Positions 1,356 to 8,935 of a stretch of 64,000 bases of DNA are shown here, in pieces; position 1 is the stretch's first letter, and each line of letters starts with the position of its first letter. Location of the stretch: NCBI RefSeq assembly GCF_011762045.1, contig NZ_JAASQS010000002.1, positions 1-64,000 on the forward strand. The letters run 5' to 3'. A program made the translations under genes and the position numbers. The stretch is from Rhizomicrobium electricum (GTDB taxonomy: Bacteria > Pseudomonadota > Alphaproteobacteria > Micropepsales > Micropepsaceae). The notes beneath the pieces are model-generated. The model ran no database searches. It was not told where the DNA came from and saw only the letters and a list, made by a program, of their open reading frames with translations.

Positions 1356-2745
1356 CGTTTTCGCACAACTGAAATCCATCGTCGGCGCCAAGGGCTTTTC
1401 CGAAGACCCGGCCGAGATCGCGCCGCATCTCGAGGAATGGCGCAGCAAATACACCGGCAAGTCGCCGCTGTTGCTGAAGCCGGCGTCGACGCAGGAAGTC
1501 TCCGCCATTCTGACGCTGTGCCACGCCACCAATACGGCGGTGGTGCCGCAAGGCGGCAATACCGGACTGGTCGGCGCGCAGATTCCGTTCAACGGCGAAA
1601 TCCTCATCACGCTGGCGCGGATGAACACCATCCGCGCCGTCGATGCCAAGGATGCAAGCCTGGTGGCCGACGCCGGTGTCGTGCTTGCCAACGCGCAGAA
1701 AGCGGCCGACGACGCCGGCCTGATGGTGGCCCTGAGTTTGGCCTCGGAAGGCACCACTACGCTCGGCGGACTGATCTCGACCAACGCCGGCGGCGTCAAC
1801 GTGCTGCGTTACGGCATGATGCGCGAGCAGGTGCTGGGCCTCGAAGTCGTGCTCGCCGACGGCAAGAAACTCGATCTGTTGCGCACGCTGCGCAAGGACA
1901 ATACCGGCTACGACCTCAAGCAGCTTTTCATCGGCGCCGAAGGCACGCTCGGCATCATCACCGCGGCGGCGATCAAACTGTTTCCCAAGCCGGAAGAACG
2001 CGCCACCGCGTTCGTTGCGGTGCCTGATGTGCATGCCGCGACCGCCCTGCTCGCCATCTTGCAGGACCGCACCAACGGTCTGCTCAACGCTTTCGAACTG
2101 ATGAGCCGTGACGGGCTCGATCTGGTACTGGAGCATGTGGCGGGCGCCCGCGATCCGTTGTCGGCGCCCTCGCCCTGGTACGTGCTGTGCGAAGCCTCCG
2201 GCATCAAAGGCATCGGTGCCGTGTTCGAGAGCGCCCTGGAAAAGACACTGGAAGACGGCGTTGCCGCCGATGCCGCGATTGCCGCCAGCGAAACCCAGCG
2301 AGCGGCGTTGTGGAACTTGCGCGAAGCCATGTCGGAAGCGCAGAAGGCGGAAGGCCCGTCGCTGAAGCACGACGTGTCCGTGCCGGTGAGCGCCGCCGCC
2401 GATTTCATCGCCACCGCCATCACCGCCGTGGCCCATCGGTTGCCGCAAGCGCGCCCGGTACCGTTCGGCCATCTCGGCGACGGCAATCTGCACTTCAATT
2501 TCCAGATGGCGCGCGGCAGCGATCCCAAGGCCTATCTCGCCCATTGGGACGAAATCCAGCAGATTGTCCACGACATCGTGCACGAACACGGCGGCTCGTT
2601 CAGCGCCGAGCACGGCGTCGGCATCATGAAGCGGGCGGCGCTGAAGCGCTACAAAAGCGCCGCCGAAGTCGAGATGATGCGCACGCTGAAACGCACCTTC
2701 GATCCCAAGAACATCCTCAATCCCGGCAAGCTGATCCCCGATTGA
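1348..2745 (+). CDS. FAD-binding oxidoreductase (D-2-hydroxyglutarate/D-lactate dehydrogenase-like)
   Basis: A 465-residue flavoprotein of the FAD_binding_4 / FAD-oxidase_C family (GlcD, D-lactate and D-2-hydroxyglutarate dehydrogenases). The PCMH-type FAD domain occupies the N-terminal half, with VPQGGNTGLVGAQ near residue 67 and STNAGGVNVLRYG near 145. The C-terminal substrate domain has the metal-binding type motifs PFGHLGDGNLHFNF and EHGVGIMKR. It oxidises a D-2-hydroxyacid to a 2-oxoacid; the exact substrate cannot be read from the sequence. It overlaps tsaC by 8 bases. Confidence 0.9.
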   Translation: MSDVFAQLKSIVGAKGFSEDPAEIAPHLEEWRSKYTGKSPLLLKPASTQEVSAILTLCHATNTAVVPQGGNTGLVGAQIPFNGEILITLARMNTIRAVDAKDASLVADAGVVLANAQKAADDAGLMVALSLASEGTTTLGGLISTNAGGVNVLRYGMMREQVLGLEVVLADGKKLDLLRTLRKDNTGYDLKQLFIGAEGTLGIITAAAIKLFPKPEERATAFVAVPDVHAATALLAILQDRTNGLLNAFELMSRDGLDLVLEHVAGARDPLSAPSPWYVLCEASGIKGIGAVFESALEKTLEDGVAADAAIAASETQRAALWNLREAMSEAQKAEGPSLKHDVSVPVSAAADFIATAITAVAHRLPQARPVPFGHLGDGNLHFNFQMARGSDPKAYLAHWDEIQQIVHDIVHEHGGSFSAEHGVGIMKRAALKRYKSAAEVEMMRTLKRTFDPKNILNPGKLIPD

Positions 2746-3955: not shown

Positions 3956-6604
3956 CTATATCTTGACCAATGACTTCGGCGGTTCGGCTGGCACAGCCGG
4001 CGTGCGATCTTTCGCCAGACCGCGCGCGGAGACGGCGGCGGTGATCACCGTCGCGGCGTACGGCAGGCTTTGCACGCCGAGCATGATGATCCACAGCCAC
4101 GCCGCGGGATCGTCGAAGCGGCCGGTTTCCATCACCGAGACGATCGCCACGATGCAGAGCCCGAACAGCGTCGTTTCCTGCCATACGCCGCGCAGGGCTT
4201 GGCTCAGCATCGCTTCGTCGGCGCATTTGGGCGTGCGGAAGAAGCCGACGCCGCTGGTGAATATGCCGCTCCACACCGCTTTCGCCACCACATGCGTCAG
4301 CGCCAGTCCGGCAATCGACGCCATCAGCGCGCCGCGCAATCCGGAGCGCACCTTGGAGGGATAGAGCAGCAGCGTCTTCAGCATCTTCGCGGCGAACAAG
4401 GCCAGCGCGGCGGCGGACAGCACCGGCATCGGCACGTCGACATAGCGCGGCGCCGCCCACATCGCGAAACTCCAGACGAGCGCGACGAAGGTGACGATCA
4501 TGCCGAGGCCGTCCGACAGCCACGGTAGCCAGCCGGAGAAGAAGTGATAGCGCTGCGCCAGCGACAGCTTAGTCGAGCCACCGAAAATCGCTCCGGCATG
4601 GCGCTTCATGATCTGCATCGCGCCGTAGACCCAGCGGTAGCGCTGGCCCTGGAACGATTTCAGCGTGTCGGGGATCAGCCCCTTGCCCATCGAGAGCGGC
4701 AGATACGCGGCGCCGTATCCCGCCTCGAACAGCCGAAGGCCGAGTTCGGTATCTTCGGTGATGCACCACGTCGCCCAACCGCCGACCTCGATCAGCTTGT
4801 CCTTGCGCACGATGGTCATGGTGCCGTGCTGGATGATGGCGTCGCTTTCGTTGCGCTCCACCATGCCGATCTGGAAGAAGCCGCGGTATTCCTCGTAACA
4901 CATCGCCTTGAACAGGCTTTCGGAGGCGTCGCGGTAATCCTGCGGGCCCTGCACGATGGCGATGCGCTCGTCGGCGAAGTACGGCAGCGTCAGCCGCATC
5001 CAGTTGGGATCGACGTGATAGTCGCTGTCGATCACCGCGATGTATTTCGCGTCGGGATGGGTGACCTCGATGGCGATGTTGAGCGCGCCCGCCTTGAAGC
5101 CTTTGACGCCGCCGAAATGGAAGAAGCGGAAGCGCGGCCCCAGCGTCTCGCAATGGGCCTCCACGGGCTTCCACGTCTCTTCATCGGGCGTGTTGTTGTC
5201 GAGGACGATGACCTCGAAATTCTCGTAATCGAGCTTCGCCAGCGCGTTCAGCGTTTCGATCAGCATCTCGGGCGGCTCGTTGTAGCAAGGCACGTGCACC
5301 GAGACCATCGGCGGGTTTTCGGGAATCTCCGCCCGCACCAGACGCTTTTCCACCCGCCACAGCGCCGAAGCGAGCTCGACGCCTTCGGTGAGGATGACGA
5401 TCGAGGCGAGCAGCACCAGCGGGCTCATCGCCAGGATCATCGCGATGTTGGCCGGGTCGACGTAATTGAGCGTCACCGCGTCGATCAAGAGAAGAATGCC
5501 GGTCGTCACCAGTGCCACCAGCCCGCCCATCACGACATAGCCGGTCGAGCGCACCCGCGGCATGCGGCCGAGAATGATGAGCCCGAGCAGTAGCGAGAAG
5601 ATGCCCGCCACCAGCGTATATTTGCGCCATTCGGGGAACGAGCGCACCGCGCCGGTGAAGTTGAACTTCGGCTGGCCTTCGGCGTTGAAGAGGCCCCAAT
5701 AGGCGCCGACGCCGCCGCCCTTGCCTTCGATGGCGGCCTTCCACGGCTGATCGTAGGCTTCGATGATGTAGTAGTCGTAGCCCTTGTCGAGCGCGAGCTG
5801 GACGAAGTTGCGGATGAAATAGGCCTGGTTGGCGAGCGAGGCGTCCGCATTGTTCATCGTGCGGCCCTGGCTCGGCCAGCCCACTTCGCCGATCACGATG
5901 GGCTTGTCGGGAAATTCGTCGGCGACGTGATTGTAGGCGCCTTGCAGGAAGCCGATCGAGCCGCGGATGTCGGAGCCTTCCCAGTACGGCAGCAGGTGCA
6001 CGAAGATCACGTCGCAGTATTCGCCGATCTCCGGATGCAGGAGCCAGCTCGACCACGTTTCGGCGGTCGTGACCTTGATGCGGGCCGGCAGCGCTCGGCG
6101 GACGCGCTTGATGTAGCCGTTGAGCTGTTCGCCGGTGACGTCACCACGCATCACCGACTCGTTGCCGACGATCACGCGGTCGATCACCCGCCGGTTGGCG
6201 AGGATGACCGCCATCGCCTTTTCCATCTCGATTTCGTTCTTGTCGAGATCGGCGCCGATCCAGATGCCGAGCGACACGGTGAGACCGTAGCGGCGGGCGA
6301 TTTCCGGCACCTTGTCGAGACCGTAATTCACCGTGTAGGTGCGGATGTGGCCGGTGAAGTGCGATAGCTGCTCCATGTCCGCGTCGATGCGCTCGGGCGG
6401 CACGTGCTTGAGCTGTTCGCTGTCGTAGGTGTGGCTCGGATAATAGGTGACGCCGCGCACCAAGCCGTCCCACTCGGGCGCCATCACGGTGTAGTCGCGG
6501 CTGGCCCAGAACAATGCGCTGGCCGAAACGACCAGCAGCAACGCGAGCGCAATACGCACCGCTCCGCCGCGACTGCGCAGAATCTGAGCCAACCTAGCGA
6601 TCAC
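3956..6604 (-). CDS. GH17-GT2 fusion: membrane beta-glucan synthase (NdvB-like)
   Basis: An 882-residue inner-membrane protein. After one N-terminal helix comes a periplasmic GH17-like domain (about residues 35-320) with the acid motif VGNES and the nucleophile motif IGEVGWPSQG. Three helices (about 335-410) lead into a GT2 processive glycosyltransferase. Its motifs are HVPCYNEPPE, DSDYHVD, TEDTE and the product-binding QGQRYRW. C-terminal membrane helices follow. Pseudomonas and Bradyrhizobium proteins of this design make or remodel beta-1,3/1,6-glucans. All key motifs are present. It sits 9 bases downstream of the FKBP gene, suggesting cotranscription. Confidence 0.88.
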   Translation of the reverse strand: MIARLAQILRSRGGAVRIALALLLVVSASALFWASRDYTVMAPEWDGLVRGVTYYPSHTYDSEQLKHVPPERIDADMEQLSHFTGHIRTYTVNYGLDKVPEIARRYGLTVSLGIWIGADLDKNEIEMEKAMAVILANRRVIDRVIVGNESVMRGDVTGEQLNGYIKRVRRALPARIKVTTAETWSSWLLHPEIGEYCDVIFVHLLPYWEGSDIRGSIGFLQGAYNHVADEFPDKPIVIGEVGWPSQGRTMNNADASLANQAYFIRNFVQLALDKGYDYYIIEAYDQPWKAAIEGKGGGVGAYWGLFNAEGQPKFNFTGAVRSFPEWRKYTLVAGIFSLLLGLIILGRMPRVRSTGYVVMGGLVALVTTGILLLIDAVTLNYVDPANIAMILAMSPLVLLASIVILTEGVELASALWRVEKRLVRAEIPENPPMVSVHVPCYNEPPEMLIETLNALAKLDYENFEVIVLDNNTPDEETWKPVEAHCETLGPRFRFFHFGGVKGFKAGALNIAIEVTHPDAKYIAVIDSDYHVDPNWMRLTLPYFADERIAIVQGPQDYRDASESLFKAMCYEEYRGFFQIGMVERNESDAIIQHGTMTIVRKDKLIEVGGWATWCITEDTELGLRLFEAGYGAAYLPLSMGKGLIPDTLKSFQGQRYRWVYGAMQIMKRHAGAIFGGSTKLSLAQRYHFFSGWLPWLSDGLGMIVTFVALVWSFAMWAAPRYVDVPMPVLSAAALALFAAKMLKTLLLYPSKVRSGLRGALMASIAGLALTHVVAKAVWSGIFTSGVGFFRTPKCADEAMLSQALRGVWQETTLFGLCIVAIVSVMETGRFDDPAAWLWIIMLGVQSLPYAATVITAAVSARGLAKDRTPAVPAEPPKSLVKI

Positions 6605-7316: not shown

Positions 7317-7694
7317 TTAACGATCGCGGCCCCCGAAGAGCCGCGCCAGGACGCCGCGCTTCTTGGGAGGTTTGCCGAGGGCGGCGCCGATGTAACCGCC
7401 AGCGGACGCCGGACCGCCGGGCATTTCCGCAATGGGTTCCCGCGACTGCGGCCGTTCGGCGTGGGGGGCAACCTCAAAGCCCGGCGCAGACGGGGCGGAT
7501 TCGCCGCGGCCGCGCGGCAGGATGGTGCGGGCGGCATAGGTCTGCTGCCAATCGAGGTCGGGATGGCGCCCGGACAGCGGACGAGCGGGCACTTGTGGTT
7601 GCGGCCCTGCTCCAGTGGCCTGGTACTGGCGGGTTTTGACCTCCGCGATGAAGCGGTCGAGGCGGCCGGCGGTTTCGGCAAAGCGGTTGGTCAT
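7317..7694 (-). CDS. Small hypothetical protein coupled to the proteasome-like gene
   Basis: A 125-residue protein with no recognised domain. The N-terminus (FAETAGRLDRFIAEVKTRQY) looks like an amphipathic helix, the middle is rich in Pro and Gly, and the C-terminus is basic (KKRGVLARLFGGRDR). It starts 2 bases after the stop of the upstream Ntn-hydrolase-like gene, so the two are probably translationally coupled and their products may work together. It has no signal peptide or membrane segment. Confidence 0.6.
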   Translation of the reverse strand: MTNRFAETAGRLDRFIAEVKTRQYQATGAGPQPQVPARPLSGRHPDLDWQQTYAARTILPRGRGESAPSAPGFEVAPHAERPQSREPIAEMPGGPASAGGYIGAALGKPPKKRGVLARLFGGRDR

Positions 7695-7696
7695 GG

Positions 7697-8935
7697 TCAG
7701 GCTCCCTGCCGTTTCCACCAGGTGAAACCCGCATCGCGGCTGATGACCGCCACGTCGATCGCCCCGCCCACGGTGGGGTCCTGAGCGGTGATGCGCTTCT
7801 TGAAAATGTTGAGGGCGACAAGATCGCGGGCCGTCTCGGCGAGATCGGCGCGAGCGGAAATCTCGACCACGGCGAGCACCGGATCGATATAGGCCGTCTG
7901 CTGGTAGGCGCCGATGGCCTCGTAGCAGGTCTCGACCGCTTGCGGCACGTGCTCGGCCTGCGCCGTACGCCGGATACTCTCGCGCTGGGCCGGATCGATG
8001 TCGCCGAAACTGCCGACCACCTTGTCGACCAGTTCGCCGGCGGCAACGTGGAAGACGCCGTAGATCCGCGACTCCAGTTCGATGTCGATGCCGCGCAGAA
8101 AGGCATAGGTCGCTTCGCTGTCGGCATAGAGCGAAATCGCGGCGTGCATGTCGCCGTCGATGACCGTCTGTTCCATGCAGGCGCGCTTGAGATGCCCGCC
8201 CACCATCGCCGAAACGGTATAGGTCGTCACCACCGGATAGGGTTGCGCGGTGCCGTAGCCGCCGAACACCAGCCCGGTGACGTCCTCGAGGAACAGGTCC
8301 TTGATCACGCACCAGATCGCGATGTCGTGCAGCCGCTTGCGGGCCTCGAGATCGATCGAAAAGGCGCTGAAGGAATAGCCGTTCACCTCGCACATCGCGT
8401 CGGCGTAATCGCGTTCGAGCACGGCGGCGAAATCGGGCGGAAAACACGCGAGATCCGGACGCGGCCGCCCGTCGGGATAGGCTTGGTAGCGCTTCCAGAC
8501 GTTCTCGATGGCGCGCTCGAGGATCGCCTCGTCGGGACCCTCTACGCCGGTCTCCTGCAGGTAATAGGCATAGCGGAAGATGAAGCGGTGCACCGAGGCC
8601 AGCAGCCGCTTGTATTCGTCCTTATGGCGCGAGGCCGGAAAGAAGGCGTCGAGACTTTCGAGGTGCGCAAACAGGCTCGCGGGATAATCACCGAGATGAG
8701 ACATCGGCTTGGGCGCAACGCGCGTGCGGTAGGTCTCGACCAGCACGTCCCAGGGATGGCCCATCAGGTCGGCCACGCCGAAGAACATCACACCGACCGG
8801 CAGGCCTTCGGCGAGGTTGAACAGCTTCTTCTGGTCGTTGCGGACGATGATCTTGCCACCGTCGATCAGGGTCACCGCGGAATCCGCGGCAAGCGCGATA
8901 GCGCGCTGATTCATCACCACAATTTCGGAAGTCAT
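7697..8935 (-). CDS. Proteasome/HslV-like Ntn-hydrolase candidate
   Basis: A 412-residue protein of unknown function. The N-terminus starts Met-Thr. Counting from Thr as residue 1, an Asp in LAADSAVT falls at position 17 and a lysine pair at 35-36 precedes LFNL. HslV has Thr1, Asp17, Lys33 in a similar context. The later run VGVMFFGVADLMG resembles the HslV strand with a small turn. The C-terminus has GGAIDVAVISRDAGFTW, resembling the last proteasome-fold strands. It is about twice HslV length, owing to a long helical middle. The fold call is inference from spacing; no homologue was searched. It is followed by the coupled small gene at 7694. Confidence 0.6.
   Translation of the reverse strand: MTSEIVVMNQRAIALAADSAVTLIDGGKIIVRNDQKKLFNLAEGLPVGVMFFGVADLMGHPWDVLVETYRTRVAPKPMSHLGDYPASLFAHLESLDAFFPASRHKDEYKRLLASVHRFIFRYAYYLQETGVEGPDEAILERAIENVWKRYQAYPDGRPRPDLACFPPDFAAVLERDYADAMCEVNGYSFSAFSIDLEARKRLHDIAIWCVIKDLFLEDVTGLVFGGYGTAQPYPVVTTYTVSAMVGGHLKRACMEQTVIDGDMHAAISLYADSEATYAFLRGIDIELESRIYGVFHVAAGELVDKVVGSFGDIDPAQRESIRRTAQAEHVPQAVETCYEAIGAYQQTAYIDPVLAVVEISARADLAETARDLVALNIFKKRITAQDPTVGGAIDVAVISRDAGFTWWKRQGA

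Follow-up and report, generated by a model that had tools for sequence, protein, structure and literature searches.

A predicted proteasome-type threonine hydrolase and an adjacent small, variable gene shared by phages, satellites, plasmids and alphaproteobacterial chromosomes

The stretch of DNA analysed here (64,000 nucleotides of a Rhizomicrobium electricum contig; the window) carries a gene for a protein resembling the catalytic subunits of proteasomes, followed almost immediately by a small gene. An initial annotation had taken the large protein for an undescribed, self-contained hydrolase of the proteasome fold and the small one for its translationally coupled partner. The locus therefore raises the questions of whether the enzyme belongs to a known class, whether the two genes form a unit, and what such a unit might do. 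The features concerned are listed in Table 1.

Fold, catalytic residues and class of the enzyme

The initial annotation had rested its case on a Met-Thr start, with an aspartate at position 17 and lysines at positions 35 and 36 when the threonine is counted as residue 1, and on the resulting likeness to a Thr1/Asp17/Lys33-type triad without a propeptide. The alignments bear out this reading and refine it. In an alignment of 49 rows from the non-IMG/VR set, with near-identical proteins collapsed and fragments and frameshifted copies (L049, L050, L061, L062 and others of <370 aa) left out, Thr2 was retained in all 48 rows reaching that position (one row begins short of it owing to ORF calling), Asp18 was invariant (49/49) and, of the two adjacent lysines, the second alone, at position 36 (K37 of the window enzyme), was invariant (49/49). 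All three residues were also invariant in a 51-row alignment composed mostly of viral contigs (A4). The candidate for the oxyanion residue Gly47, G53 of the window enzyme, for which the register is uncertain, was a glycine in 27, an asparagine in 16 and another residue in six of the 49 rows.

The AlphaFold2 model of the window enzyme obtained from A4 (pLDDT 91.9, pTM 0.87) contained the four-layer fold expected of a proteasome homolog. Structural comparison by VIA-align identified Anbu as the best match, with a Z of 17.3 over 192 residues (rmsd 3.3), together with the 20S beta subunit (Z 16.6, 183 residues). Residue 2 of the model was aligned with the first residue of Anbu and with that of most 20S rows shown. 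The top Foldseek match was a 20S beta subunit (E 1.2e-4); the search of BFVD gave nothing at E≤0.001, its best match being a phage “proteasome beta type-2” (2.3e-3). Independently of the model, the A4 profile matched Thermoplasma proteasome beta (E 0.0031), with Thr2, D18 and K37 paired with Thr1, Glu17 and Lys33 in a weak N-terminal stretch (4.8 bits), and most of the score (13.3 bits) coming from the GGxIDVAVI strand at the C-terminus and its Thermoplasma counterpart. The long helical middle described in the initial annotation corresponds to helices within residues 101–211 and 285–358 of the model, and the elements of a modelled phage member follow one another in the same order. By predicted fold and conserved triad, the window enzyme is a proteasome-fold N-terminal-threonine hydrolase. 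Neither outcome named in the initial annotation as refuting this reading, a model lacking the four-layer sandwich or homologues not conserving Thr2, Asp18 and a lysine near 36, was observed. Removal of the initiator methionine would expose Thr1, and the enzyme would be expected to act as a peptidase or, alternatively, as a ligase in the manner of connectase.

The window enzyme matched PHROG 5990 (function unknown) over its full length (3.6e-65), and gave no match in Pfam, NCBIfam, PADLOC or, in a single-sequence search, the PDB. It did not reach the curated cut-off of PF00227 (Proteasome), which was weakly matched by three of 20 family members (best E 0.0063). PADLOC-DB 2.0.0 gave no match for either window protein. 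The survey of proteasome homologs by Fuchs, Alva and Lupas (2021; PMC8665760), in the portion of its text available, leaves the function of the PMI classes open, assigns insertions both after H1/H2 and between H3 and H4 only to PMI-3 and PMI-4, and lists only the latter in phages, its hosts being Proteobacteria, Firmicutes, Bacteroidetes and phages. Both insertion sites are filled in the window model and, of these two classes, the phage range is that of PMI-4 only, so a PMI-4-type homolog is the most likely identity, as assigned by insertion layout and host range alone and not by sequence. The enzyme family is therefore probably already catalogued, and the term “undescribed” is not supported for a member of PHROG 5990 with the insertion layout and phage presence of PMI-4. 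The AAH class, first considered for its occurrence in phages, was rejected, as the same text describes it as compact and without insertions. The reference list of PMC13022661 includes the 2021 survey, and we recognised no later work on the PMI-type class in the literature searched.

A second, shorter proteasome-like ORF (280 aa, with a Met-Thr start and the motifs AADSAS and NNANKVFNL) was observed at positions 1471–2313 (+) of L018, from genome G007, with a similar ORF in L063. The L018 ORF had no Pfam match, and may represent another of the 2021 classes.

Table 1. Positions of the enzyme and partner genes and of their features in the window, and of ubiquitin-related neighbours in plasmid loci
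Feature	Position	Strand	Basis or remark
Enzyme ORF, predicted proteasome-fold N-terminal-Thr hydrolase, PHROG 5990, PMI-4-like	7697..8935	-	412 aa, starts Met-Thr
Thr2 codon, nucleophile (Thr1) after putative Met removal	8930..8932	-	Row conservation and model alignment
Asp18 codon, Asp17 of the triad	8882..8884	-	49/49 rows; weak profile pairing with Thermoplasma beta Glu17
Lys37 codon, Lys33 equivalent	8825..8827	-	49/49 rows; weak profile pairing with Thermoplasma beta Lys33
Helical insertion 1, residues 101–211, after H1/H2 (pore-loop site)	8303..8635	-	AlphaFold model; site as defined in the available text of PMC8665760
Helical insertion 2, residues 285–358, between H3 and H4	7862..8083	-	AlphaFold model; site as defined in the available text of PMC8665760
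GGGAG, RBS-like, for the partner, within the last enzyme codons, just upstream of the partner ATG	7702..7706	-	Sequence; suggests translational coupling
Partner gene, 125 aa, basic, no known family	7317..7694	-	Starts 2 bases after the enzyme stop
C-terminal basic-aromatic motif of the partner, KKRGVLARLF	7335..7364	-	Alignment A5; patterns drawn up after seeing the data
Multiubiquitin, ThiF and DUF6527 neighbours	L046 7944–10788		
	L047 8699–11524		
	L050 8687–11512		
	L028 4733–6799		

The adjacent partner gene

The window partner had no match in Pfam, NCBIfam or PADLOC. Its description as a genuine gene coupled to that of the enzyme was supported, the short spacing being accompanied by an RBS-like sequence, with the coupling itself being suggested by this arrangement. 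Of 52 viral-locus representatives, 46 had a small ORF (30–75 aa, with an RBS-like sequence) as the next gene after that for the enzyme; the same was true of 45 of the 229 other long ORFs (≥250 aa) in these loci. For all 98 representatives, members with less than 250 nt of downstream sequence being left out of the count, the next gene was small (≤75 aa) in 58 cases and encoded 76–165 aa in 27; it had no clear ribosome-binding site in seven, was absent in five and was large in one. Inspection of the misses by eye recovered partners in L055, L056 and L058. The remaining exceptions were L030, in which no partner was found, L197, with only 26 aa, and two enzymes (L028, 8001–9437; L033, 1501–2832) with a C-terminal extension, possibly a fused partner, in place of a separate one; L175 was ambiguous.

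Separate searches for the enzyme and for the partner identified the same 17 of 61 genomes, all from the genus of the window; one of these genomes (G002) had one further weak partner match. Nine of the 20 genomes of the genus lacking the pair were examined. In six (L260, L261, L263–L266), the LysE and FKBP genes were direct neighbours, with neither gene of the pair between them; in the other three (L262, L267, L268), these genes were kilobases apart or LysE lay off the stretch. As enzyme and partner are jointly present or absent in the genus, the description of the enzyme as self-contained is doubtful.

Partner sequences are highly variable: 115 partners, including three entered by hand, fell into 43 blast clusters dissimilar from each other. 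Their net charge was positive in 106 of 115 cases, and dN/dS was nonetheless below 0.5 in all 30 measurable pairs (median 0.14; pairs with at least 60% identity, not independent of each other), ten further pairs being saturated at synonymous sites. As judged from these ratios, the partners are under purifying selection. The motif [SGNP][FWL][FLWV]x[RKQ][LMFK] recurred in eight of the 43 clusters (shuffles: mean 0.68, maximum 4), and a related basic-aromatic pattern in eight of the 11 partners of the alphaproteobacterial clade from outside the genus (shuffles: mean 0.62, maximum 4); the data had already been inspected when these two patterns were defined, and not all matches are C-terminal. The partners also seemed to share a W-x3-[FY] motif (26 of 77 sequences versus 3.0 in shuffles), which was dropped because a stricter form was not significant per cluster (4/43; shuffles: mean 1.0, maximum 5). 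When enzyme and partner were modelled with AlphaFold2 on one read-through chain (seven paired rows), the partner had a pLDDT of about 50 at a helix and about 30 beyond it, with no confident placement; it is probably largely disordered.

We consider it reasonably probable that the enzyme and partner form one unit, with the proteasome-type hydrolase being controlled or fed by the partner. The first gene would yield a hydrolase from which the initiator methionine is removed, exposing Thr1, and the two large helical insertions of which may hinder the formation of a closed double-ring barrel. The second would yield a small, basic, probably largely disordered protein; if its translation is coupled to that of the enzyme, it would be close to the enzyme as soon as the latter is made. 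We infer that the partner most likely binds the enzyme, either to control it, as an inhibitor, activator or assembly factor, or to present a substrate. The few members without a separate partner and the uncertain position of Gly47 count against such a unit. The lack of a confident placement in the one-chain model also tempers this reading, but does not speak against binding. We regard as established the predicted fold, the conserved triad, the presence of a selected partner gene next to that for the enzyme, the occurrence and loss of the two genes together in the genus, the lysogeny-type sites in phages, and the spread on phages, satellites and plasmids.

Distribution on chromosomes and mobile elements

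The family records comprise 10 plasmid and 13 phage records and 186 confirmed viral-contig stretches, from which eight plasmid loci, eight phage loci and 80 viral-contig matches were taken further; a single scan of genome contigs gave three loci. Relatives in viral contigs were found only with alignments, the scan with the window enzyme alone giving no match. The hosts include Proteobacteria, Streptococcus, Enterococcus and Porphyromonas, and the distribution is patchy (17/385 and 10/398 genomes in two genome searches). In the midpoint-rooted FastTree phylogeny of 101 representatives, the copies from the genus of the window formed a single clade (18/18, support 0.998), its neighbours in the tree being copies carried by other genomes of that class, with no member of the viral, phage or plasmid collections among them; the remainder of the tree consisted of phages, satellites, plasmids and scattered genome copies. 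The window copy falls within this larger alphaproteobacterial clade, which is mainly chromosomal and has longer partners: 89–162 aa in this set, against 34–70 aa for the other 86 partners.

Within the genus, 16 of 17 loci have an FKBP gene no more than about 1.3 kb from the pair, the distance in L080 being 5.3 kb; in seven loci, LysE is found less than 0.25 kb away on the opposite side. Gene order is likewise conserved in two further families; in one, the pair lies between queA and tgt, with a cyclophilin gene upstream of queA. A special link with peptidyl-prolyl isomerases was rejected, as the pair near the cyclophilin gene just occupies the interval between queA and tgt. Sequence evolution is faster in the enzyme than in its neighbours (83% identity to the G033 copy, versus 93–94% for LysE, FKBP and a glycosyltransferase). 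It was not found in 20 of 37 genomes of the genus, some of them incomplete, and six sites were empty; the pair is therefore dispensable. It looks domesticated in this genus, at mostly one chromosomal site. The gene adjoining that for FKBP in the window (3956–6604, -), syntenic in the genus, encodes a large protein, perhaps a beta-glucan synthase, in which a glycosyltransferase family 2 domain was recognised, along with a GH17 match below the threshold.

The mobile copies recur at sites of the lysogenic-conversion type. Among 59 viral representatives, 12 had the pair immediately after a co-oriented gene for a regulator of the repressor type or of another HTH type (10 identified by PHROG, and L148 and L142 by blastp). 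The gene immediately before the pair was endolysin-like in six, and a holin gene lay opposite the pair in three (L108 and L137 by PHROG; L121 by blastp), with L119 added by eye only; these classes cover only part of the 59, the remainder being unclassified. Two contexts were observed in complete E. coli genomes: behind an HTH gene in the immunity region of a prophage, and between Q and the holin genes, antisense to them. A query from one E. coli prophage matched the full enzyme in nine of 5426 E. coli genomes, and a query from another matched 22, over a short stretch only. The partner ORFs of the E. coli prophages L269 (13308–13457, 49 aa) and L270 (12208–12312, 34 aa) are related to partners in viral loci and are unannotated in RefSeq; half of the unit can thus be overlooked in annotation.

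The pair closes the element in three of the four streptococcal satellites examined, further genes following it in the fourth. A toxin-antitoxin-like pair of Gp49-like and HTH genes lies immediately upstream in L022 (6229–6880), L043, L044, L045 and L193. For staphylococcal satellites, the available text of PMC13376191 describes accessory genes, on occasion conferring phage resistance, that are often located near the integrase gene and between terS and the 3' end. Genes for multiubiquitin, ThiF and DUF6527 were found beside the enzyme gene in four of the eight plasmid loci examined, all rhizobial and from two divergent lineages; in L046, multiubiquitin is fused to an E2 and ThiF to a JAB domain. 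As the link with ubiquitin-like proteins comes from two lineages only, it is kept as a lead.

Possible roles and comparison with known systems

The possibility that the small ORF is a coincidental neighbour of an enzyme working alone is already disfavoured and highly improbable: phage genomes are dense in small ORFs, as the control genes show, and a few members have no recognisable partner, but the excess over these controls, the purifying selection on the partner, the identical sets of genomes with enzyme and with partner, the sites of the genus that lack both, and the presence of the pair outside phages all argue against it. The partner might instead be a dedicated substrate, cleaved or ligated by the enzyme in a connectase-like manner, with the release or attachment of a short basic peptide. 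Its small size, basic charge, apparent disorder and adjacency to the enzyme, and the recurrence of the basic-aromatic motif, are consistent with this role, and connectase provides proof, according to the available text of PMC8665760, that the same fold can ligate. We nevertheless consider a substrate role unlikely, because the motif patterns are post hoc, with some matches not C-terminal, and in 35 of the 43 clusters the motif is missing from half or more of the sequences. For the genus of the window, the pair could be a housekeeping quality-control peptidase and its assembly factor, with a role unrelated to that of the phage copies. The monophyly of these copies, the nearby FKBP gene and the GC content of the enzyme gene (0.634, close to the 0.631 of the window, that of the partner gene being higher, at 0.706) point in this direction; the many genomes without the enzyme, the empty sites and the rapid evolution of the enzyme make such a role rather improbable.

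A possible but doubtful function is that of an anti-phage or superinfection-immunity module, in which a toxin-like protease would be held by its small partner or the partner would act as a sensor. Such a module would have travelled on temperate phages, satellites and plasmids before its domestication in certain alphaproteobacterial chromosomes. The recurrent lysogenic-conversion sites, the two E. coli prophage contexts, the position at the end of satellites behind the Gp49-like/HTH pair, the multiubiquitin and ThiF neighbours in plasmids and the patchy distribution are all consistent with immunity. However, there was no PADLOC match, no paper testing an immunity role was found in the literature searched, and position suggests only expression in the lysogen, which other lysogenic-conversion functions would fit equally well. 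Moreover, three alphaproteobacterial groups have retained the pair at core sites, which suggests a cell function there. More speculatively still, the family might constitute a widespread two-gene lysogen-immunity system, composed of a proteasome-type threonine hydrolase and a hypervariable partner, carried by temperate phages, satellites and plasmids, linked to ubiquitin-like conjugation in rhizobia and domesticated in alphaproteobacterial chromosomes, including that of the window. If immunity were the function, the family would, to our knowledge, provide the first case of a bacterial or phage proteasome homolog acting in immunity.

Whatever the role of the unit that we favour, the partner gene and the mobile two-gene nature of the system appear to be new, on the basis of the literature searched, the enzyme class being probably known. 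The widespread pair hints at a mobile, unstudied protein-processing device, and its nearly constant partner, recurrent phage sites, joint loss and selection on the partner provide a handle for testing PMI function directly. If the partner controls the enzyme, the pair would constitute a minimal proteasome system of two components, with no ATPase.

The enzyme shares its fold and the position of the catalytic Thr1 with Anbu, but is about 180 residues longer, with two large helical insertions and a small partner of its own. HslV also starts with Met-Thr and forms a hexameric double ring working with HslU. The window enzyme has the core fold and the Thr1/Asp17/Lys33-type triad of HslV and 20S beta subunits, but its insertions may hinder a closed double ring, and no HslU-like gene adjoins the pair in those fetched loci of the family that carry an annotation. 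Small trans-acting helpers of proteasomes, such as Ump1 and PI31, resemble the partner by description: they are small, largely disordered, as the partner appears to be, and dedicated to a proteasome-type enzyme. The rexAB genes of lambda, among others, are repressor-linked superinfection-exclusion genes and, like the pair in the 12 viral representatives mentioned above, form a two-gene unit directly behind a gene for a repressor-type or HTH regulator; we know of no relation between the proteins, and a shared function would be suggested by position alone. A close resemblance is also seen to PMI-4 (and PMI-3), as described in the available text of PMC8665760, with which the window enzyme shares a proteasome core, insertions at the same two sites and the lack of a propeptide, and, in the case of PMI-4, a family range covering phages and several bacterial phyla. 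That text reports no genomic context or co-occurrence hinting at function for the PMI classes, whereas the window family has a partner gene and recurrent phage sites.
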